Shown here in pieces: positions 1,855 through 13,262 of a stretch of DNA of 64,000 bases. This DNA comes from Actinomycetota bacterium (lineage in GTDB: Bacteria > Actinomycetota > Thermoleophilia > RBG-16-64-13), in the NCBI GenBank assembly GCA_018830645.1, contig JAHJSA010000093.1, positions 1-64,000 on the forward strand, written 5' to 3'. The notes beneath the pieces are model-generated. The model saw only the letters and a list, made by a program, of their open reading frames with translations, was not told the origin of the DNA and did no database searches. A program made the translations under genes and the position numbers. Numbering within the stretch: the first letter of the stretch is position 1; every line of letters starts with the position of its first letter.

Positions 1855-3810
1855 CTACCCCCGCCGGTCGGCCATGTCGAACAGCACTCGCTCTTGCGCC
1901 TCGTGGATGCCGAGGGCTTCGCGCTTCTTGCGGATGTGGGCCATGGAGGCCTCGAATATCCCCTGCCAATCGGAGATGAACTCGAGCTTGCCGCCGAACT
2001 GCTCCTCCCACCCGGAGGTGTGGATGTCGGTGACAGCACCGGAGGCACGCACCGGGGACTCCACCCCACCGAAGATGACGTAGGCACCGCTGCCCACGCA
2101 GTACGTGGCGATCTCGAGTGCCTTCTCGCAGTAATACTCCGGCGAGATGCCCACGGCCGGCACCTGGTCGATGTCGTCGCCCAGACCACCGGTCTCTACG
2201 ATATCCGTGAGGATGGTGAGTATCCGGGTGTTGTCCACACAGCTGCCCACGTGGAGCACGGGCGGCATGCCGGTGGTCTCGCAGACCTCCGACAGCCCCG
2301 GACCGGCGTTCTCGAACATCTCGGGAGTGAGGAAGCCGTGCTTCCCGGCCGCGTGGGCCGCACATCCGGTCACGAGCACGAGTACGTCGTTCTCGATGAA
2401 GTTCTTGACCAGGTTGATGATGCCCTCGTCCTGGGTGGAGCGGGGGTTGTTGCAGCCGACGATGGCGACGGCGCCCTGGATCTTGCCGTTGATGATGTTG
2501 TCGTTCAGGGGCTGGAAACTCCCACGATACTTCCCGCCCAACATGTACCGGATGTACTCGTGGGAGAAGCCGGCGACGACGGGGCTCTTGATGTTCGGGA
2601 TGTGGACTTTGGCCGCGTCGCGGTTCTCGTAGTTGTCGATCGCCATCCTGACGATGTCCTTGGCAATCTCGAGCGCCCGATCCTCGTGGAACTCCACGCG
2701 AGTGGCTCCCTCGATGTGAGCCTTCTGTGACGTGGTGACCACGTGCGTGTGGAAGTTCTTGGCCACGCCCACGAGTCCCTGGAAGACACACTGGATGTCG
2801 GTGACCATGAGCTCCACCGCGCCCGTGAGGAGCGCCAGCTCCTGGTGCAGCGAGTTGCCTGCCGGCGGTACGCCTCGGCGCATCCAGATCTCGTTCGCCG
2901 TGCAGCAGATGCCGGCCAGAGTGATGCCGGCCGCGCCCTTGCTCTTGGCGTACTCGATGATCTCGCGATCTTGGGAAGCGTCAACGATCATCTCGGAGAG
3001 TACGGGCTCGTGTCCGTGGATGATGATGTTGACGTCCTCGACGTTCAGCACGCCCAGGTTGGCCTCGCTGGTGAGCGGCCTCGGAGTGCCCCAGAGGATA
3101 TCCGAGATGTCGGTGGCGAGCATGGAGCCGCCCCATCCGCTGGCCAGGCACATGCGCACGCACTGGTCCATGATGTGTTGAGCGTCCTGATCGCCACCGG
3201 CGTGGGTGCGGTGCATGGAGTCCACCACTTCGCGGTCGAACCCGCGCGGAGTGACCCCCAGCTTCTCCCACAGCTCCTGGCGCTTCTTGGGAGCGCGCTT
3301 CGCGTAGATCTGGTGCTCGTTCTGCTTGCCCCACTCGTTGAGCGCGGCCGTTGCCACTTCTACGGCAAGCTGATTGTCGTCCTTGCCCTCGACCGGGATG
3401 TCGAAGTAGCCGGCGACTGTACGCAGCTTGATGGGGTCTTTCACCCGGTAGTCCGCCGCCTCGCCCTTGCCCACCATCAGCAGGGTCTCGGCGATGGTGC
3501 GTCCGTGGTCGGCGTGCGCGGAGGCTCCGCCGGCGCAGGAGCGGATGAAGTTCCGCGCCGCGACAGTGGCCAGGTTCGCGCCGCAGACTCCGTGCTTCTG
3601 TTCCTTCTCCTTGCCCACGAAGCGGCAGGGACCCATGAAGCAGATCTTGCAGCAGGCACCTTCGGCTCCTATTGGGCACGCCGACACCTCGTCGACGCGG
3701 GAGAACATCGTGGAGATGCCCTTCTCATCGGCGATCTGGAGCATCTCCAGAGCAGCCGGATCGATCGACTTGGCGTAGTCGTTACCTTTTTTCTTCTTCT
3801 CATCAGACAT
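1855..3810 (-). CDS. cooS: anaerobic carbon-monoxide dehydrogenase, catalytic subunit (CODH/ACS type)
   Basis: The enzyme interconverts CO2 and CO at a nickel-iron-sulfur C-cluster and passes CO to acetyl-CoA synthase. The 651-residue protein shows the N-terminal Cys cluster for the B/D iron-sulfur sites (Cys45, CCKIC at 53-57, Cys62, Cys76) and the C-cluster segments GICCTANE, VGCNNPR, TGCAAHAAGKHG and GSCVDN, plus a Cys in YCEKALEIATYCVGSG. The length and gene order match the acsA-type CODH of acetogens. The ATG at 3810 has AAAGGAG 12 nt upstream; the 34 codons before it are not family-like. It lies between acsD (22 bp upstream) and acsB (7 bp downstream). CooC, encoded in the same operon, would serve its nickel loading. 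Confidence 0.97.
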   Translation of the reverse strand: MSDEKKKKGNDYAKSIDPAALEMLQIADEKGISTMFSRVDEVSACPIGAEGACCKICFMGPCRFVGKEKEQKHGVCGANLATVAARNFIRSCAGGASAHADHGRTIAETLLMVGKGEAADYRVKDPIKLRTVAGYFDIPVEGKDDNQLAVEVATAALNEWGKQNEHQIYAKRAPKKRQELWEKLGVTPRGFDREVVDSMHRTHAGGDQDAQHIMDQCVRMCLASGWGGSMLATDISDILWGTPRPLTSEANLGVLNVEDVNIIIHGHEPVLSEMIVDASQDREIIEYAKSKGAAGITLAGICCTANEIWMRRGVPPAGNSLHQELALLTGAVELMVTDIQCVFQGLVGVAKNFHTHVVTTSQKAHIEGATRVEFHEDRALEIAKDIVRMAIDNYENRDAAKVHIPNIKSPVVAGFSHEYIRYMLGGKYRGSFQPLNDNIINGKIQGAVAIVGCNNPRSTQDEGIINLVKNFIENDVLVLVTGCAAHAAGKHGFLTPEMFENAGPGLSEVCETTGMPPVLHVGSCVDNTRILTILTDIVETGGLGDDIDQVPAVGISPEYYCEKALEIATYCVGSGAYVIFGGVESPVRASGAVTDIHTSGWEEQFGGKLEFISDWQGIFEASMAHIRKKREALGIHEAQERVLFDMADRRG

Positions 3811-3832
3811 GATCGTCGGGGACTCCTTTCTA

Positions 3833-4774
3833 CTATTCGCCCTTGAGGCTGGAAATGGTCTTCCGGACCAGGGCGGCTGACTCCGGGTGGCGTAGGACGA
3901 CGATGTTCGCACCGGCCACCAAGAGAGCGACGGCGGTGAGCGATTCCCACATCAGACCGCGGGTGACCAGGTCGCCCGTTCCGGGGAGCTCGTCCTCGCT
4001 CACCTTGGTCTCTTTCGCCTTCCATGCTTCCTGGCCCACCGTGGCGATGATAGGCATCTGCATCTTCGCGTCGTTCTGCGAGAGCGCCGCCAAACGATCG
4101 CGTTCGAACACTGTGTACGCGTACTCCAGACCGTATCCGAGAGCGCCTGTGGTGGGGTCCATGAGGATCGAGCCCTCGTCCAGCCCGAGTTGCGAAAGAA
4201 GAACGTTCAGCTGCTTTGCGAGGTTCACGTCCATCGGGCTGAAGGCCACGACGCTGTGTTGATAGCCCATCGCGGCCGCACCCACGGAGCGGTAGGTGTC
4301 TTCCTCGGCGTTGCCGATGACCACCTTGCTGCCGCCCAGTGCCTCGGCGACCACCTTGAGCACTTCGGGGTCGCGTTCCACGTCGCCGCACCCGACCACG
4401 ATCACGGGCACGTCGACAGCGGCGACCACAGCTTTAGCCGTCGCGGCGGCGTCGGCCGCTGAGCGGTTGGCGCCGTTGGGATCGGTGCCGCGCAGGCGTA
4501 GATAGATCATGTCCGCGCCGAATTCGTCCACGACCTTCTTCGCCCAAGTCACCGCATCGCTGAACGCGCCGCCGTACACGTCGTTCAGCGTCACCGACCA
4601 GTCATCGGGGGCGATGTCCCACACCTCGAAAGCGATTCTCGGGTCGTTGGGCATCGCTCCTTCGAACGTGTGGAAGGGGAACGCCGACTCCCCACCGACG
4701 GCCACGCCGCCCACATCGATCTGACGGATCGCTCCCTTGTATGTTTCGACAGGAGCCTGAAAAGTCAACTCCAT
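3833..4774 (-). CDS. acsD: corrinoid iron-sulfur protein small subunit (ACS/CODH delta subunit)
   Basis: The protein forms the CFeSP heterodimer with AcsC and helps carry the methyl group on cobalamin from methyl-THF to acetyl-CoA synthase. The 313-residue length matches the family (about 310). The start MELTFQAPVETYKG and the internal segment with LRLRGTDPNGANRS followed by VPVIVVGCGDVERD are typical of the TIM-barrel delta subunit. The ATG at 4774 follows AAAGGAGTG with unusually short spacing. The 3' end is 22 bp before cooS. The large subunit acsC is not in this window, so the partner must be encoded beyond the left edge or elsewhere. Confidence 0.93.
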   Translation of the reverse strand: MELTFQAPVETYKGAIRQIDVGGVAVGGESAFPFHTFEGAMPNDPRIAFEVWDIAPDDWSVTLNDVYGGAFSDAVTWAKKVVDEFGADMIYLRLRGTDPNGANRSAADAAATAKAVVAAVDVPVIVVGCGDVERDPEVLKVVAEALGGSKVVIGNAEEDTYRSVGAAAMGYQHSVVAFSPMDVNLAKQLNVLLSQLGLDEGSILMDPTTGALGYGLEYAYTVFERDRLAALSQNDAKMQMPIIATVGQEAWKAKETKVSEDELPGTGDLVTRGLMWESLTAVALLVAGANIVVLRHPESAALVRKTISSLKGE

Positions 4775-4817: not shown

Positions 4818-5783
4818 TCAGGCGCCGGCCAGTAGTCTGGCGGCGCGCAGGGTGTTCTTGGCAAGCATCATGTTGGTGACCGATCCTACTCCTCCCGGCA
4901 CGGGAGTGATGGCCTTCGCCTTCGCGGCCACCTCGTCGTAGTTCACGTCGCCCACTGTCTTGGTCTCGGCCTCGGCCAGGTCGGTACTGCAGTTCTTACA
5001 GGGGTCCTTCTTCGAACGGTTGTAGGTGCTGCACTCGGGGCACACGATGACCCTGTTGATGCCCACGTCGATCACCACCGCGCCCTCCTTCACCTGTGCC
5101 GCATTGATCAGGTTGGGGAAGCCGGCGGCCACGATGACGTAGTCAGCGGTCGTCGTGTGCTTCTCGAGGTTGCCTTTCATCGAGGTGAACACGTGACTCG
5201 TGGTGACGGTCGCGTTGCGGTTCAGCGCGAGGAAGCTGACCGGCTTCCCTACGATGTTCGAGTGGCCGACCACGCAGATCTCAGCACCCTCGAAACCGTC
5301 CTTGACGTCGATGCCCTCAGCCTTCAGATAACGCTCCATCAGTTCGATGCAGGCCGAGGGGGTGGCCGGCGGGAACGTGGGCTCGCCCAGAGCGAGTTTC
5401 CCCATGTTGTACGGGTGGAAGCAGTCGATGTCCTTGTCGACGCTGATCGAGTTGATCACCGCGGAGTCGGAGATGTGCGCCGGGAATGGGCGCAGAGGAA
5501 GAATGCCCGAGACTTTGGGATCGGCGTTCAGCGACTCCACGATCTTGATGACATCCGCTTCGGTGAGATCGGAAGAGTGAGTCTCCTCCCGGTACCCGAA
5601 GCCCATCTCGGCGCAGAACTTCTCCACGGCGCCCCGGTACATCTTGGCGCCGAAGTCGTCGCCCACGAGTAGCGTGGCGATGCCGGGCTCGATGCCCTGC
5701 GCCTTCAGCTCAGCGAGCTCACGACCCAGTTCTTCTCTGATCTCGGCCGCTATGGCCTTACCATCGATGATCTTCGCTGCCAT
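4818..5783 (-). CDS. folD: methylene-THF dehydrogenase (FolD family) with zinc-ribbon insert and altered cyclohydrolase residues
   Basis: FolD enzymes oxidise or reduce 5,10-methylene/methenyl-THF and usually also hydrolyse methenyl-THF. The 321-residue protein has the dinucleotide-binding signature GHSNIVGKPVSFLALNRN and the C-terminal PVPGGVGSVT. By eye, the conserved Tyr is kept (Tyr49), but the catalytic Lys four residues later is Val53 and the conserved Gln of the GIL-V-Q-LPLP motif is Leu97; the Asp of the DVDGF motif is kept (Asp120). A four-Cys insert, CPEC (248-251) and CKNC (262-265), looks like a zinc ribbon and is absent from ordinary FolD. The separate cyclohydrolase gene fchA is the neighbour, so this FolD may act only as a dehydrogenase (inference). 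The start is the ATG at 5783. Confidence 0.92.
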   Translation of the reverse strand: MAAKIIDGKAIAAEIREELGRELAELKAQGIEPGIATLLVGDDFGAKMYRGAVEKFCAEMGFGYREETHSSDLTEADVIKIVESLNADPKVSGILPLRPFPAHISDSAVINSISVDKDIDCFHPYNMGKLALGEPTFPPATPSACIELMERYLKAEGIDVKDGFEGAEICVVGHSNIVGKPVSFLALNRNATVTTSHVFTSMKGNLEKHTTTADYVIVAAGFPNLINAAQVKEGAVVIDVGINRVIVCPECSTYNRSKKDPCKNCSTDLAEAETKTVGDVNYDEVAAKAKAITPVPGGVGSVTNMMLAKNTLRAARLLAGA

Positions 5784-5830: not shown

Positions 5831-6466
5831 CTATCCGAGTTTTTCGTATGTCAGGTCCATCACGGTGGTTCGAAGAGCTGCGGTCTCGGCGAGGATCTCC
5901 TGCACCCGGTTCCAGCTGCTCGTGTTGAAATCTTGGTCTTGGATCCAGCCGATGTTGATCTTCACGTTCAGTGCGCCGCTCTGCGCGGCCGTATCGGCGA
6001 GAAGTACCGCCACACCCGCGTCGCTGACCGCGTTCACGTTACCGATCTCGGCTGCGGTCAGGCTGAGCTGCGCAACAGCCAACGCCTGCTCGGATATCGC
6101 GAGCGGCACCTTGGCGGCCTCGATGAGGGCCGCCTGCATCAGGCGGTCGCGGACTTCTGTCTGCTCCTCTGTCTCTCGGGGGAGCTTCATCGCTTCCGAG
6201 ACCGCGCCGTAGACCTCGGTGTCCTTCTGCACCAACTCCTGCAACTCGGCCCTGATCGTCTCCGAGCGCGCCAGAAGGGCCTCGATGTCGCCCTGCACGT
6301 CGGCGTACTTCGCCTTGCCCACCGTCAGGCTGGCGACCATGCTCACCAAGCCCGCTCCAAGAGCACCTGCGAGTGCCGCCACACTGCCGCCGCCCGGTTC
6401 CGGGCTCGCCGTGGCCAACTTGTCGAGGAACGCCTCGATACTCCCGCCGATGTAGCCGTCTCCCAT
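5831..6466 (-). CDS. fchA: methenyl-THF cyclohydrolase / formiminotransferase-cyclodeaminase-type protein
   Basis: The 211-residue protein belongs to the FTCD-C (cyclodeaminase/cyclohydrolase) family, all-alpha dimers that convert between methenyl-THF and formyl-THF. The N-terminus has the family hallmark ASPEPGGGSVAALAGALGA at about residues 19-37, followed by a long helical body. The ATG at 6466 has GGGGAG about 8 nt upstream; the frame is open further upstream but reads into cooC sequence. Position between cooC and folD in a Wood-Ljungdahl operon fits FchA of Acetobacterium and clostridia, where FchA supplies cyclohydrolase activity beside FolD. This matters here because FolD seems to lack key cyclohydrolase residues. 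Confidence 0.92.
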   Translation of the reverse strand: MGDGYIGGSIEAFLDKLATASPEPGGGSVAALAGALGAGLVSMVASLTVGKAKYADVQGDIEALLARSETIRAELQELVQKDTEVYGAVSEAMKLPRETEEQTEVRDRLMQAALIEAAKVPLAISEQALAVAQLSLTAAEIGNVNAVSDAGVAVLLADTAAQSGALNVKINIGWIQDQDFNTSSWNRVQEILAETAALRTTVMDLTYEKLG

Positions 6467-6531: not shown

Positions 6532-7290
6532 CTAGATCTCCAGGTACCGTTCGATGAGACCGCGCACCGCTCCCAGGCTGATCGCGTCCTCGGGAAGAGC
6601 GAACACGTCTTTGCCCGAGAGGTCGTTCGAGAAGAGCGCGTCGTCCTGCGGCACGACGCCTCCGAGCGGCACTGTGGTGTGCTCCATCAGCCCGTCCACG
6701 GCCACGCCCTGGGGCACCCGGCTCACCACGACGTAGCGCTCCGCCACGACGAGTCCCATCTCGTCCACGAGCTCCGATATGCGCTCCACGGTCCGCATGC
6801 CGCGCACCGACGGGTCGGTCACTATGAACATGACATCGACGTCGCGGGTGGTGTGGCGGCTTAGGTGTTCGAGGCCTCCCTCGTTGTCCATCACGACCCA
6901 GGCATACTCGCTCGCCAAGGTCTTGATGTATTCGCGCAGCAGGTTGTTGGCGTAGCAGTAGCACCCAGGGCCTTCCGGCCGGCCCATGACCAGCAGGTCG
7001 TAGCCGGCAGCCTCCTCGATCGCCTCGTGCATCTTGTATTCGATCCAGCTCTGCTTGTCCCAGCCCGTTGGGATCTCGCGCACGCCCATGAAAGCCGCCT
7101 CACGCAACCCGCCCACGGTCACCGCCGCCCGCGTTCCAAGGAGCTCTCCCAGGTTCGCGTTCGGATCGGCGTCTACCGCCAAGATCGGGGCCTGACCCAT
7201 CCCCACGAGTTCGCGGATCAGAAGCGCGGCCAACGTGCTCTTGCCCGTGCCGCCCTTGCCGGCGACGGCCACTGTCTTCGTCGTCGCCAT
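6532..7290 (-). CDS. cooC: CO dehydrogenase nickel-insertion ATPase CooC/AcsF
   Basis: CooC is a MinD-type dimeric ATPase that binds Ni(II) and helps load the CODH C-cluster. The 252-residue protein starts with the deviant Walker A GKGGTGKST (about residues 11-19), has DADPNANLG (Walker A' region) and carries the metal-binding CXC motif in GPGCYCYANN (about residues 108-117), which joins the two protomers through the metal in CooC1. The ATG at 7290 directly abuts the stop of the upstream acsV-like gene (TAGATG), so the two are translationally coupled. Location in the acs operon supports service to CooS and possibly AcsB. Confidence 0.95.
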   Translation of the reverse strand: MATTKTVAVAGKGGTGKSTLAALLIRELVGMGQAPILAVDADPNANLGELLGTRAAVTVGGLREAAFMGVREIPTGWDKQSWIEYKMHEAIEEAAGYDLLVMGRPEGPGCYCYANNLLREYIKTLASEYAWVVMDNEGGLEHLSRHTTRDVDVMFIVTDPSVRGMRTVERISELVDEMGLVVAERYVVVSRVPQGVAVDGLMEHTTVPLGGVVPQDDALFSNDLSGKDVFALPEDAISLGAVRGLIERYLEI

Positions 7291-9249
7291 CTATCGGGCC
7301 TCGCCGACGCGCTCGGTAAGGATCTCTTCCATCCTGGGGAAGTACTTCATGTCCGTGTGGGGCAGGAACATCGCGGCTACGTAGCGGTCCATGAACATCG
7401 GGTTGTCCGACATGTCCACGTTCGTCATCGTGCGGGCGACCTGCTCGGCAGCCTTCAACATATCCTTGGAGAACGAGACCAACCTGGCTCCGAGGAGCGA
7501 TCCGTTGCCTACGAAGGTGAAGATGTCCAGGTCGACTTCGGGGAAGATGCCGATAGCCTGCGCCTGCTCGATGCGAAGGTACTTGCCAAAGCCGCCGGCT
7601 ACGTAGATCTGCTCGAGGTCCTTCCAGTCGAGTGCGACGCTCTCGAGAAGGGTCATGATGCCCGCGAAGATGGCGGCCTTTGCGCGCACCAGATTGTCGA
7701 TGTCGGACTCGGTGATGACGATGTCGTCGCCCGTGCCCGAGTAGCGGGCCTCCACCAGGACGTACTCGTTGGACCCGTCGATGGTCCTCACCCGGTCGGA
7801 TGGGAGCGAGACATCGAACCTGCCGTTCTGGGAGAGGACGCCGACCTTGAGTAACTCGGCGACCGCGTCGATGATGCCCGAGCCACAGATGCCTATGGGC
7901 ATAACGTCGCTTATGGTGAGCAGAGTGGGCTCGTACGTGACCGGGTCGATGCGCACGGTCTCGACGGCGCCGTCGGTGGCCCGCATGCCGTGCTTGATGC
8001 CGCCGCCCTCGAACGCGGGCCCGGCGGAACACGACGTGGCGATGAGCCACTCGCGGTTGCCGATGACCACTTCGCCGTTGGTGCCGATGTCGATATACAA
8101 CGTGATCTGTTCGGTGTCGAAGATGCCCGAGCCAAGGATGCCGGACACGATGTCGCCGCCCACGTAGCTCGCCACGCTCGGGAAGGTGTGCAGATGCACG
8201 TGCCGGCCGACCTTGATGCCGTCACCCAGGTTCACCGCACGCACCGGGGGGATGAAGTCCGCCGGAGGCACGTAGGGCGCCATCCTCAGATACTTGGGGT
8301 CGATGCCCAGCATCAGGCAGGTCATCGTGGTGTTGCCCGCGGCCACCATGTGGCTTATGCGTTCGCGCTGGATGCCGCTCTCGACCACGAGCTCGTCGAC
8401 GATCTCGTTGATCGTGTCGACGATCGCCTGCTGGAGCGTCTCGCGGCCGTTGGGCTTCTGCGAGAAGACGATGCGGCTGATCACGTCGTCCCCGTAGCTG
8501 ATCTGCTTGTTGTACCGGGAGGCCTGCGCCACGGTGACGCCTTCGCTGAGGTCGAGCAATTGGCCCCACACGGTCGTGGTGCCGATATCCATCACCACGG
8601 AGTAGTCCTCGCCGCAGTGGGATCCGGATTCGAGCTCGATGACCTTGGACCCGTACGACGTATCGACCACGGTCGCCGTGACCAGCCAATCCTGCTCGCG
8701 CAGGACGTGGGGCATGTTGCGGATCCAGATGGAGTCGATCGAGACGTTGCTCAGGCCGAACTCGTCTTTGAGAGCCTTCTTGAACCGGGCGAGGTCGTTC
8801 AGGTTGTCGCTCTCGCTCGGCGGGATCATCTGAACGCACAGTTTCTTCACCACCGGGTCCAACGACCAGCCCGCCACCAGCGACTCGAGCTGGGCAGGAG
8901 TGAGGAGGCGTCCCTTCCGGTCGCCGCGCATCTCACGCTCGAGGACGGCGGCGTTCCCCATCCTCGACGTCTCCGGCACGAACACCTCAAGATCGGACAC
9001 GATGTGCGACTGACAGGCCAGACGGTAGCCTTCGGACCATTCGTCGTCGGACAGCTTCGCCGAGCGCTCGCACTCGACCTCACCAGAGACGATCTTCACG
9101 CGGCACTTGCCGCAGGAGCCCGAGCCTCCGCACGACGCATTTATGTGCAGATCGGCCAGCATGGCCGCGCGGAGGATGGTCTCTCCGCGCGGCACATCGG
9201 CCGCGACCACGCCACCAGGTTTGAAGGTAAGCGTGTGCCGTTCTGTCAT
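7291..9249 (-). CDS. acsV: corrinoid activation/regeneration protein (ferredoxin-ASKHA, AcsV/RACo type)
   Basis: This family reductively reactivates the Co(II) form of the corrinoid iron-sulfur protein to Co(I), using ATP. The 652-residue protein has an N-terminal [2Fe-2S] ferredoxin domain (residues 1-95) with ligands CGGSGSCGKC and a distal Cys in YRLACQSH. A linker follows, then a large ASKHA-type ATPase region (about 210-640) with DIGTTTVWGQLLDL, YIDIGTNGEVVIGN and CGSGIIDAVAELLK. The ATG at 9249 lies 39 bp after the fhs stop and I see no good ribosome-binding site, so it may be translated by coupling. The gene name is assigned from architecture and operon position. Confidence 0.92.
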   Translation of the reverse strand: MTERHTLTFKPGGVVAADVPRGETILRAAMLADLHINASCGGSGSCGKCRVKIVSGEVECERSAKLSDDEWSEGYRLACQSHIVSDLEVFVPETSRMGNAAVLEREMRGDRKGRLLTPAQLESLVAGWSLDPVVKKLCVQMIPPSESDNLNDLARFKKALKDEFGLSNVSIDSIWIRNMPHVLREQDWLVTATVVDTSYGSKVIELESGSHCGEDYSVVMDIGTTTVWGQLLDLSEGVTVAQASRYNKQISYGDDVISRIVFSQKPNGRETLQQAIVDTINEIVDELVVESGIQRERISHMVAAGNTTMTCLMLGIDPKYLRMAPYVPPADFIPPVRAVNLGDGIKVGRHVHLHTFPSVASYVGGDIVSGILGSGIFDTEQITLYIDIGTNGEVVIGNREWLIATSCSAGPAFEGGGIKHGMRATDGAVETVRIDPVTYEPTLLTISDVMPIGICGSGIIDAVAELLKVGVLSQNGRFDVSLPSDRVRTIDGSNEYVLVEARYSGTGDDIVITESDIDNLVRAKAAIFAGIMTLLESVALDWKDLEQIYVAGGFGKYLRIEQAQAIGIFPEVDLDIFTFVGNGSLLGARLVSFSKDMLKAAEQVARTMTNVDMSDNPMFMDRYVAAMFLPHTDMKYFPRMEEILTERVGEAR

Positions 9250-9288: not shown

Positions 9289-10950
9289 CTAGAAGAGGCC
9301 GACAATCGTACCGTCGACCAAGTCGATAGCCTCAGCCGCGGGCTTCTTGGGGAGACCGGGCATGGTCATCATCTTGCCGCAGACGGGCACGATGAAGCCC
9401 GCTCCAGCGGACAGTCGCACCTCGCGGACGGTAAGCCTCCAGCCCGTGGGACGGCCGATCTTGGTCTTGTCGTCCGACAGGGAAGACTGGGTCTTCGCCA
9501 TGCAGATGGGAAGCCCGGAGTACCCGTTCTTGGTGAAGCGCGCGATAGCCTCTTCGGCCTCCGGAGTGTAGTCGACACCGTCGGCGCCGTAGATCTTGGT
9601 GGCTATGGCCTCGATCTTCTCCTGGATGCTCTCGTCGAGCCCGTAGAGGAACTTGAAGTCCGGAGTCTCCTCGTCGCAGATGCGCACGACTTCCTTGGCC
9701 AGTTCCACACCGCCGTCGCCGCCCTTGGCCCACACGTCGGAGAGCACGACCTTGGAGCCCATGGCCTTGACCTTCTCGTCGAGAAGCGCCACTTCACTGT
9801 CGGTGTCGTCGGGGAAGCGGTTGATGGCCACGACCACGGGGACACCGTACAGCTGCATGTTCTCCACGTGTTTCTGCAGGTTGTCGAGGCCCTTCTCCAA
9901 CGCGCCCAGATCCTCGGCCTTCAGGTCGGCGAAGGCCACACCGCCGTGCGTCTTGAGCGCACGGATGGTGGCCACGAGCACCACGCAGTCGGGAGTGAGT
10001 TCCGCGTAGCGGCACTTGATGTCGAAGAACTTCTCCGCGCCGAGGTCGGCGGCGAAACCGGCTTCCGTGACGCAGTAGTCGGCCAGCTTGAGTCCGAGCT
10101 TGGTCGCCTGCACCGAGTTGCAGCCGTGGGCGATGTTGGCGAACGGACCGCCGTGAAGGATGGCCGGGGTGTTCTCGAGAGTCTGCACCAGGTTCGGCAT
10201 GAGGGCGTCCTTCAGAAGGACGGCCATGGAGCCCGAGACCTTGATGTCTTTCGCGGTGACCGGGGTGCCCGACTTCGAGTAGCCCAGGATGATGCGGTCG
10301 AGACGGGCCTTCAGGTCTTCGAGGTCGGTGGCGAGACACAGGATGGCCATGACTTCGGAAGCCACGGTGATGTCGAAACGGCTCTTGCGCTCGACGCCTT
10401 CACCTTCTTGGCCCACGGTGACACTACGCAGGGCCCGATCGTTCAGGTCGACGACGCGCGGCCACACGATGTTCTCGGTGTCGATGTCGAGCTCGTTGCC
10501 ATGGAACAGATGGTTGTCGAGCACCGCGGCGCACAGGTTGTGAGCGGTGGTGATGGCGTGCAGGTCGCCGGTGAAGTGAAGGTTGATGTCTTCCATCGGT
10601 ACGACCTGGGCGTAGCCGCCTCCCGCCGCGCCGCCCTTGATCCCGAAGGAAGGACCGAGGGAAGGTTCCCGAAGAGTGGTCACGACGTTCTTACCGATCT
10701 TCGCCAGACCCATGGAGAGGCCCACGTTGGTGGTGGTCTTGCCTTCGCCCGCGGGCGTCGGGGTGATCGCGGTGCACAGGATCAACTTGCCGTCAGGCTT
10801 GTCGGCCAGACGATCGAACACGTCGAGGTGGATCTTCGCCTTGTACTTCCCGTACAGGTCGATCTCGTCCTCACCGAGACCAAGGTCCTTCGCCACGTCC
10901 ACAATCGGCTTGAGCGTGGCTTCCTGGGCGATCTGGATATCGCTTTTCAC
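9289..10950 (-). CDS. fhs: formate--tetrahydrofolate ligase
   Basis: The enzyme activates formate with ATP and tetrahydrofolate to 10-formyl-THF, the first THF-dependent step of the methyl branch. The 553-residue length is family standard. The P-loop is [16 protein letters not shown] (about residues 63-78), followed by [18 protein letters not shown] and [12 protein letters not shown]. The start is a GTG at 10950 with AGGAGG 10 nt upstream. It is the first gene of the leftward Wood-Ljungdahl operon and lies directly behind a near-consensus promoter (10996-11023). Confidence 0.97.
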
Positions 10951-11058: not shown

Positions 11059-12318
11059 TTAGCGGTCGCTCTGTACCACTGGTCGCTCCGCGAGCAGGCG
11101 GCGCGCGTTCTCGGCGGCCCGCGCCATGACTTCCTTGAGGGGCAGGTCGAGCACCTCGGCAGCCCGGGCGGCGTCTTCGAACTCAGTTGCCACCGTCACG
11201 GGAAGGCCGCCGCGCCGGCCGATCTTCACACCTATCGTCTGCCCATCCATCGACACGTGGATGATCTCCCTCTCGAGCAGGTGGCGGGACTTCTCCGATC
11301 GGCGCACCCCGAACGTCGTGGATTCGCGGAAGACGAGATCGACCAGCCGCGCCTCGTGCTCCGGACGGCACAACACCGAGAGCTCCAACCCGGGCCTGTT
11401 CTTCTTCATGAACACGGGCGACCACCAGGCGTCGAGCGCTCCGGCCTGCATGAGCAGGCCGAGGAGGTGCCCGGCGATCTCGGGAGAACCGTCGTCGATG
11501 GTGGCCTCAAGCACGACGACCATCTGCGCCTCCAGCTGCTCCCCACCAGGATCCGGCGCCGTGTCCGGATTCCACCCCGGGTTCGCGGTGGTCTCGCCCA
11601 ACAGCGCGCGGAGCACGTTGGGCCCGTGTTCGAGGTGGCGCGCTCCGCCCCCGAAGCCCACCCGCTCCACCACCATGGGCGGCACGCCCCGCAAAAGCCC
11701 TCCGGACTCGGTGAGCAACAGGGCGCCGGTCGGCGTGGTCACCTCACTCCGCTCGGGCCCCGCCAGCACGGGCACGCCCTTCAGGAGTTCAAGTGTGGCC
11801 GGAGCGGGCACCCCGAGCTTCCCGTGCTCGGTGTCCACGGTGCCCGACCCGAGTGGGACGGGGCCGTGAAACGCGCGATCCACCGCGAGGGCCTCGAGGA
11901 GCGCAAAGGTCCCCACCACGTCCACGATGGTATCGGCGCCACCGAGTTCGTGGAAGTGGACGGTTTCCGGCGACACGCTGTGGATGCCCCCCTCGACCTC
12001 CGCCAGCCGGCGTAGCGCCGCCAGCGAGCGTTTTCGCACCGCAGGCGACAGGGCGGTAGCCGCCTCAAGAAGACGCTCGAAGCCGGCCAGGTCGTGGGTG
12101 GGAGTGTCGGACGGCACGACCACGTCCACCCTCGTGCACCCAACACCCCGCGAGGTAGCTCGCCAGGCCTCGACCCGCACTCCCGGAAGGCCGAGAGCGT
12201 CCACTGCCTCTTCGAGGCGGCCGACAAGTCCCTCCCCGGAGTCGAGCGAGAGCAGCGCGCCGAGGAGCATGTCCCCAGAGGCCCCGGCCCACGGGTCAAA
12301 GTAGACGATGCGTGCCAC
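11059..12318 (-). CDS. larC: nickel insertion protein LarC (nickel-pincer nucleotide synthesis)
   Basis: LarC inserts nickel into the pyridinium bisthiocarboxylate nucleotide in a CTP-dependent way, completing the nickel-pincer cofactor of lactate racemase and related LarA enzymes. The 419-residue protein begins with the signature YFDPWAGASGDMLLGALL and has HFHELGGADTIVDVVG near residue 125. The C-terminal domain is present and the gene is full length. The GTG at 12318 has GAGG 6 nt upstream. It follows the cytochrome gene by 68 bp on the same strand. LarB, LarE and LarA are not in the window, so the target enzyme is unknown. Confidence 0.9.
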   Translation of the reverse strand: MARIVYFDPWAGASGDMLLGALLSLDSGEGLVGRLEEAVDALGLPGVRVEAWRATSRGVGCTRVDVVVPSDTPTHDLAGFERLLEAATALSPAVRKRSLAALRRLAEVEGGIHSVSPETVHFHELGGADTIVDVVGTFALLEALAVDRAFHGPVPLGSGTVDTEHGKLGVPAPATLELLKGVPVLAGPERSEVTTPTGALLLTESGGLLRGVPPMVVERVGFGGGARHLEHGPNVLRALLGETTANPGWNPDTAPDPGGEQLEAQMVVVLEATIDDGSPEIAGHLLGLLMQAGALDAWWSPVFMKKNRPGLELSVLCRPEHEARLVDLVFRESTTFGVRRSEKSRHLLEREIIHVSMDGQTIGVKIGRRGGLPVTVATEFEDAARAAEVLDLPLKEVMARAAENARRLLAERPVVQSDR

Positions 12319-12386: not shown

Positions 12387-13262
12387 CTAGAACGCTTTGT
12401 ACTCTCCCGTGGTGTGGCAGTGCGCGCAGGTAGTGGAGTTGTGGCACTGGAAGCACGGGAGCACCCCCGCCTGCGCCACAACACCCCTGTGCTGCCTGGT
12501 CCAGGGCACGTCCCCCGCTTCGAACCCCGTGTGGTGGCATTCGTTGCACAAGGTGCGGGCCGGATGACAGGTGCCGCAGGCGCCTTCGCCCACGTCTCGA
12601 GCCGTCGCGGGATGGGCGGCGGTCCAGTCTCCCTGATGTGGCATGTCGACCTTGTGACAGTCGATGCAGAAGCCGGCGTCATGACACACCGAGCACTCTT
12701 CGGGCCCGCCCAGGCCGTCGATCGCGTGCAGTGCCGCGACGGCGTCGAGGCGTTCCAGGGCGGGGAGCCAATCGGCGTCGTCGTGCGAAAGCGGCACCAG
12801 CCCGAAGTCCGGTGGGTGACACGCGTCGCACGCCCCCGGAGGAGCGCCCGCCTCGTCCTGCGAGTGGCAACCGAAGCACTTGGCCATCGTGGGCTTCACG
12901 ATACCGTCCTCACGATGGGTGGGCACCAGGTGGCAGTCGGGACAGGACGCTCCGGAATCCAGATGCAGATCGTGAGTGAAGTTCGACACCAAGACGCCGT
13001 CGCGGCCCACCGACCCGTCGAACCGGCTGTGGCAGTCGGGGCACTGGGCGAAGTTTCCGGGAAGTTCGACACCCACGAGCGAGTCGCCGGTCGTGTCCTC
13101 GGTGGAGGCCGTGGTCGCGGTGGGCCCTGAATCGGTGGTCGAAGATGGAGGAACGGGATCGTCCGTAGCGGCGCGACATCCGGCGAACAGCACGAGGATG
13201 GTGGCCATCGCGGCGGTGACGGCGAACAGACTCCTCGCTCGGTTCTTCGTGTTCGCAGCCAT
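12387..13262 (-). CDS. multiheme c-type cytochrome lipoprotein with ten CXXCH motifs
   Basis: The 291-residue protein has a lipoprotein signal peptide with lipobox LFAGC (Cys29), a Ser/Thr-rich linker, and then ten CXXCH heme-binding motifs: CPDCH twice, CFGCH, CDACH, CSVCH, CIDCH, CGTCH, CNECH, CFQCH and CAHCH. Extra His residues (for example THDLHLD) could serve as distal ligands. It should be anchored on the outer face of the membrane and shuttle electrons. The ATG at 13262 has GGAGG 7 nt upstream, and a promoter lies at 13329-13357. No quinol oxidase or partner subunit is adjacent, so the role is open; I do not recognise a named family such as NrfH or NapC. Confidence 0.9.
   Translation of the reverse strand: MAANTKNRARSLFAVTAAMATILVLFAGCRAATDDPVPPSSTTDSGPTATTASTEDTTGDSLVGVELPGNFAQCPDCHSRFDGSVGRDGVLVSNFTHDLHLDSGASCPDCHLVPTHREDGIVKPTMAKCFGCHSQDEAGAPPGACDACHPPDFGLVPLSHDDADWLPALERLDAVAALHAIDGLGGPEECSVCHDAGFCIDCHKVDMPHQGDWTAAHPATARDVGEGACGTCHPARTLCNECHHTGFEAGDVPWTRQHRGVVAQAGVLPCFQCHNSTTCAHCHTTGEYKAF

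Follow-up and report, generated by a model that had tools for sequence, protein, structure and literature searches.

A FolD without the catalytic lysine and glutamine, encoded beside fchA and carrying a Cys4 insert in its active-site loop

The FolD protein encoded in a Wood-Ljungdahl operon of an actinobacterial genome is very probably the dehydrogenase half of a split FolD that is paired with a separate FchA, and the Cys4 insert that it carries is most likely a structural zinc site. The stretch of DNA that was analysed comprises 64,000 nucleotides and is hereafter called the window. The folD gene (4818..5783, minus strand) starts with ATG and encodes 321 amino acids, and its product is predicted to be a monofunctional 5,10-methylene-THF dehydrogenase.

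Fold, active-site residues and operon

The two FolD Pfam domains, PF00763 (THF_DHG_CYH, 6e-31) and PF02882 (THF_DHG_CYH_C, 1e-50), span the whole protein. The AlphaFold2 model has a mean pLDDT of 94.9, and its best fold matches are FolD structures (Z 37-39.2, rmsd 1.4-1.8 Å). In phmmer alignments, the catalytic helix and the GIL strand match FolD of Escherichia coli (1b0a) and Pseudomonas aeruginosa (4a5o) without gaps, and in the MAFFT alignment Tyr50, Lys54, Gln98 and Asp121 of the E. coli enzyme correspond to Tyr49, Val53, Leu97 and Asp120 of the window FolD. The protein thus shares both domains, the whole fold, the catalytic tyrosine of the YxxxK motif and the pterin-binding aspartate with the bifunctional FolD/MTHFD enzymes (E. 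coli 1b0a and human DC301). However, it differs from them in having Val53 and Leu97 in place of the catalytic lysine and the lysine-positioning glutamine, a cysteine (Cys121) in place of glycine, and the Cys4 loop insert. The first-pass annotation had read Tyr49, Val53 and Leu97 in the same way, and both alignments agree with it. Across the 17 members of an alignment covering several families, Val53, Leu97 and Arg98 do not vary, and their invariance, together with that of the four cysteines described below, indicates that the residue pattern is not due to chance. The window genome encodes a single FolD; a second, normal FolD was ruled out by the PF02882 match count of one. Cys121, which follows the pterin-binding aspartate where E. 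coli FolD has glycine, occurs in nearly the whole clade of relatives. The window FolD also has a three-residue insert at the cofactor site (T-S-x-x-G-N).

The operon runs on the minus strand in the order fhs (formate-THF ligase, 9289..10950), acsV/RACo (corrinoid activation protein, 7291..9249), a CooC-like P-loop ATPase for CODH maturation that is named from its context (6532..7290), fchA (5831..6466), folD, acsD (corrinoid Fe-S protein small subunit, 3833..4774) and cooS/acsA (CO dehydrogenase catalytic subunit, 1855..3813). The fchA gene, whose ATG start at 6466 was inferred from the reading frame, lies one gene upstream of folD; the first-pass annotation had noticed it as a neighbour. We assign its product as a methenyl-THF cyclohydrolase of the FTCD_C family from its profile (PF04961, 3.5e-60) and from its nearest solved relative, the methenyl-THF cyclohydrolase 7vg4 (residues 5-202, 2.1e-41); its score for the NCBIfam MthfCyhylaseFchA equivalog is 209 bits, below the cut-off of 275 bits. 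Further upstream, a 291-residue open reading frame (12387-13262, minus strand) precedes larC (11059-12318, minus strand); it is rich in CxxCH and resembles a multihaem cytochrome c. A strong AcsC/CdhD-like match lies on a separate contig of the same genome (C106:549-1679).

The lysine-less subfamily and its fchA neighbour

Relatives were sought in 396 genomes of the phylum and in 84,980 species genomes; none was found in viral contigs. The clade that shares about 57% identity or more spans Actinomycetota, Bacillota, Spirochaetota and Nitrospirota. Lysine and glutamine are both absent at all 68 readable clade loci, where the lysine position is occupied by Val, Ile or Gly and the glutamine position by Leu, followed by Arg. 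The loss is therefore not peculiar to the window FolD but subfamily-wide over several phyla. The fchA gene adjoins folD at 65 of the 68 loci, and at the other three (L061, L103 and L119) folD begins at a contig end. All 33 clade genomes of the sampled phylum have the clade FolD alone, their other FolD matches being weak (<28 bits) or a fragment. FchA is present in 32 of them, within 400 bp of folD in 31; the exception, G330, has a completeness of 84% and a folD that is broken off at a contig end. As a control, FTCD_C was found in 12 of 47 sampled other genomes, and the FolDs read from FchA-less genomes keep both lysine and glutamine (30/30).

Further Lys-less FolDs ('YERRV ... LVLRPLP') occur outside the clade among FchA-bearing genomes. 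Several of them directly adjoin fchA (G041, G011, G026, G098, G012 and G027), and in several of the FchA-bearing genomes a normal FolD coexists with the Lys-less form. G041 has two copies of a Lys-less FolD-FchA pair, which score identically and lie at different chromosomal positions (L148 and L154), in addition to a normal FolD. The sole FolDs of G027 and G012 (L145 and L147) are far diverged, with Ala at the lysine position and 'LRPLP', and adjoin fchA. In four loci of Armatimonadota-related MAGs (L125, L127, L132 and L134), FolD has Gln at the position of the catalytic lysine and fchA is nearby.

A tree built with a quick method is compatible with all Lys-less FolDs lying on the same side of one branch (support 77), and they may all trace to a single old loss. 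Because a single ancestral loss is possible, the clade loci do not count as separate tests of the link with FchA, and the Fisher value calculated for this link overstates its strength; a test of lysine loss against FchA by independent pairs yielded one pair only and had no power, and the data are compatible with a single loss. Judging from the sequences, the loss of lysine and glutamine marks an ancient FolD subfamily that is present in several phyla. The fchA-folD pair occurs in three settings, namely the Wood-Ljungdahl operon, an fhs-fchA-folD-MTHFR cluster (followed at L067 by a dihydrolipoamide dehydrogenase-like gene) and an xseA-ispA-fchA-folD-dxs cluster, which at L068 of a Bacillota MAG belongs to a housekeeping xseA-ispA-dxs-tlyA-nadK-recN cluster. 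The persistence of the pair in such varied contexts argues for functional coupling. At L068 (842-7253), the cluster is preceded by two genes, one for a GltD-like protein that contains a NuoF-like stretch and the other for a 695-residue NuoG-like protein, whose products may form an electron-transfer pair.

The lysine has been proposed to act as the acid-base in the cyclohydrolase reaction and is positioned by the glutamine (PMC3338484). In E. coli FolD, the K54N mutant has undetectable cyclohydrolase activity and about 19% of the dehydrogenase activity, and Q98H retains about 1% and about 8%, respectively (PMC5688156). Since these mutants tie both residues to the cyclohydrolase, the reading of the Lys/Gln-less FolD as a putative dehydrogenase, paired with FchA as the cyclohydrolase, is well supported. 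Alternatively, FolD could still be bifunctional, with Arg98, Arg50 or water replacing Lys54 and Gln98, and FchA could merely add flux or serve, for example, formimino-THF cyclodeamination. In Bombyx mori MTHFD, the K53A and Q97A mutants have cyclohydrolase kcat/Km values close to or above that of the wild type (PMC6443876). Residue loss is therefore no proof of activity loss, and Arg50 and Arg98 are both invariant in the clade. Some proteins of the FTCD_C family are cyclodeaminases; 1tt9 and 1o5h are also among the structure matches of the window FchA, and the genome encodes four FTCD_C proteins, three besides FchA. Nevertheless, we regard a bifunctional FolD as unlikely, given the severe E. 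coli mutants, the retention of both residues in every FolD read from FchA-less genomes, the adjacency of fchA across phyla and the cyclohydrolase as the best solved match of FchA. On balance, the genomic link with FchA favours a dehydrogenase only, and we infer that the cyclohydrolase activity has been lost in the window FolD, a division of labour that the first-pass annotation had also proposed and that the literature on the mutants and the genomic linkage now back. The 92% loss of dehydrogenase activity in Q98H implies that Leu97 must be compensated in the window FolD.

In the predicted scheme, FolD would use a pyridine nucleotide, probably NAD(H), for the interconversion of methylene-THF and methenyl-THF, and FchA would interconvert methenyl-THF and 10-formyl-THF; with Fhs, the two would be the core of the methyl branch encoded in the Wood-Ljungdahl operon. 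E. coli FolD reaches NADP through residues other than those used by the human enzyme. In the latter, the 2′-phosphate of NADP is contacted by Arg173, His196 and Ser197 (PMC3368264). The aligned residues of the window FolD are His174, His197 and Val198, and the change of two of the three ligands (His174 and Val198) suggests NAD(H) as the cofactor.

The Cys4 insert in the active-site loop

A zinc-ribbon-like insert, CPEC-x10-CKNC, occupies residues 248-265 in the active-site loop that follows GINR (4989..5042, minus strand, computed from the start at 5783). Cys248, Cys251, Cys262 and Cys265, already singled out in the first-pass annotation, form a CPxC-x10-CxxC pattern, and the loop that bears them is about 26 residues longer than that of E. 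coli FolD. The model is confident here, with a pLDDT of 91-95 over residues 241-270. The insert starts at the fourth residue after Arg244. This arginine aligns with Arg234 of E. coli FolD, which belongs to a flexible active-site loop; in the empty enzyme, this loop touches Asp121 (PMC3338484). The spacing of the cysteines is common to zinc ribbon and double zinc ribbon knuckles (PF12773, DZR), but the match of the insert to this family is weak (14.4 bits against a cut-off of 27.3 bits, E 0.045), and the insert is embedded in the active-site loop of an enzyme.

All 14 FolDs of the ribbon clade have the CPxC-x10-CxxC pattern, and these ribbon FolDs are monophyletic with 100/100 support. In the 13 ribbon genes that were read at the codon level, all four cysteines are invariant, with synonymous TGC/TGT changes only. 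A search of the 396 phylum genomes for the cysteine pattern retrieved four, all from the family of the window genome, and the ribbon as a common trait of Lys-less FolDs was rejected on this ground. Sister families have a 22-residue hairpin, VLDEKGEPVLNEKGKPKTK, in the same loop, so that the Cys4 insert appears as its lineage-specific replacement. A hairpin homologue is also encoded by Ca. Geothermincola (L084). The ribbon is best read from these sequences as having arisen once, in one actinobacterial lineage, within the active-site loop. The initial view that FolD had lost residues and gained a ribbon therefore holds for both features but not for a joint event: the loss of lysine and glutamine is older, and the ribbon came later, separately and in one lineage, which makes them two stories.

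Zinc ribbons are often purely structural. Most simply, the Cys4 insert would hold a structural zinc and thereby stiffen the loop, and the model and the conserved cysteines make a zinc site stabilising the active-site loop likely. Given that the insert lies in this loop, docking is no more likely than a structural or gating role. The ribbon might instead dock FchA (or Fhs) at the mouth of the FolD active site, allowing direct transfer of methenyl-THF; its position close after Arg244 and the status of fchA as the sole constant neighbour would fit such a role. However, the hairpin-only relatives share the linkage with fchA, so that the FolD-FchA pairing needs no ribbon, and with the frequent structural use of zinc ribbons this makes docking of FchA improbable. 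We give as little credence to the related scenario in which a two-activity site was split and later re-coupled to FchA through a metal-stabilised contact, with the ribbon as an evolved gate or docking knob. Docking of a redox protein or a CODH/ACS subunit that delivers electrons, the partner role raised in the first-pass annotation, is highly improbable despite the position of the window folD in a CODH/ACS operon, because the ribbon FolDs L062-L067 and L120 lie in an fhs-fchA-folD cluster with no acs genes beside folD, non-ribbon relatives sit in the same operon, the four cysteines suit zinc better than an electron carrier, and the hydride partner of FolD is a soluble nucleotide. A tie of the ribbon to the CODH/ACS operon was likewise rejected from L062-L067. 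Our literature search found no paper on a zinc ribbon in FolD.

Relation to known systems and implications

The split of dehydrogenase and cyclohydrolase is known in acetogens and methylotrophs and is a widespread old arrangement. Monofunctional methylene-THF dehydrogenases have been purified from Peptostreptococcus productus and Acetobacterium woodii; we liken them to the window FolD by the predicted activity of the latter. Yeast Mtd1 (1edz), another monofunctional methylene-THF dehydrogenase, matches the fold of the window FolD with a Z of 29.1, and the window FolD would likewise be a dehydrogenase only, but their identity is only 25%. In acetogens, the combination of fchA with folD has been described before (PMC10213532, PMC3584212). 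Compared with known pairs of FchA (7vg4/7vg5) and a separate dehydrogenase, the window FchA matches 7vg4 over residues 5-202, but it lies under the NCBIfam cut-off and adjoins a Lys-less FolD that is the sole FolD of its genome.

The present analysis adds a residue signature that is constantly linked with fchA, the lineage-specific Cys4 loop and a likely correction of a published assumption. A 2020 paper assumed a bifunctional FolD for UBA1414, UBA9087 and RBG-13-55-18 'given the absence of fch' (PMC7325909). In Geothermincolia MAGs, the Lys-less FolD adjoins an FchA-family gene, and on the residue pattern the assumption looks wrong for this group. The FchA-family gene could have been annotated as ftcD; from the abbreviation list of that paper, it is plausible that such naming lies behind the 'absence' of fch.

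The results suggest a sequence rule: a FolD that keeps Lys54 and Gln98 would be bifunctional, and one that has lost them, with x-L-R-P-x-P beside fchA, would be a dehydrogenase only. As a probable metal site added to the mobile active-site loop of a central enzyme, the ribbon also lends itself to experimental study. The rule bears on reconstructions of the methyl branch of the Wood-Ljungdahl pathway in uncultured Actinomycetota, Nitrospirota and Spirochaetota.
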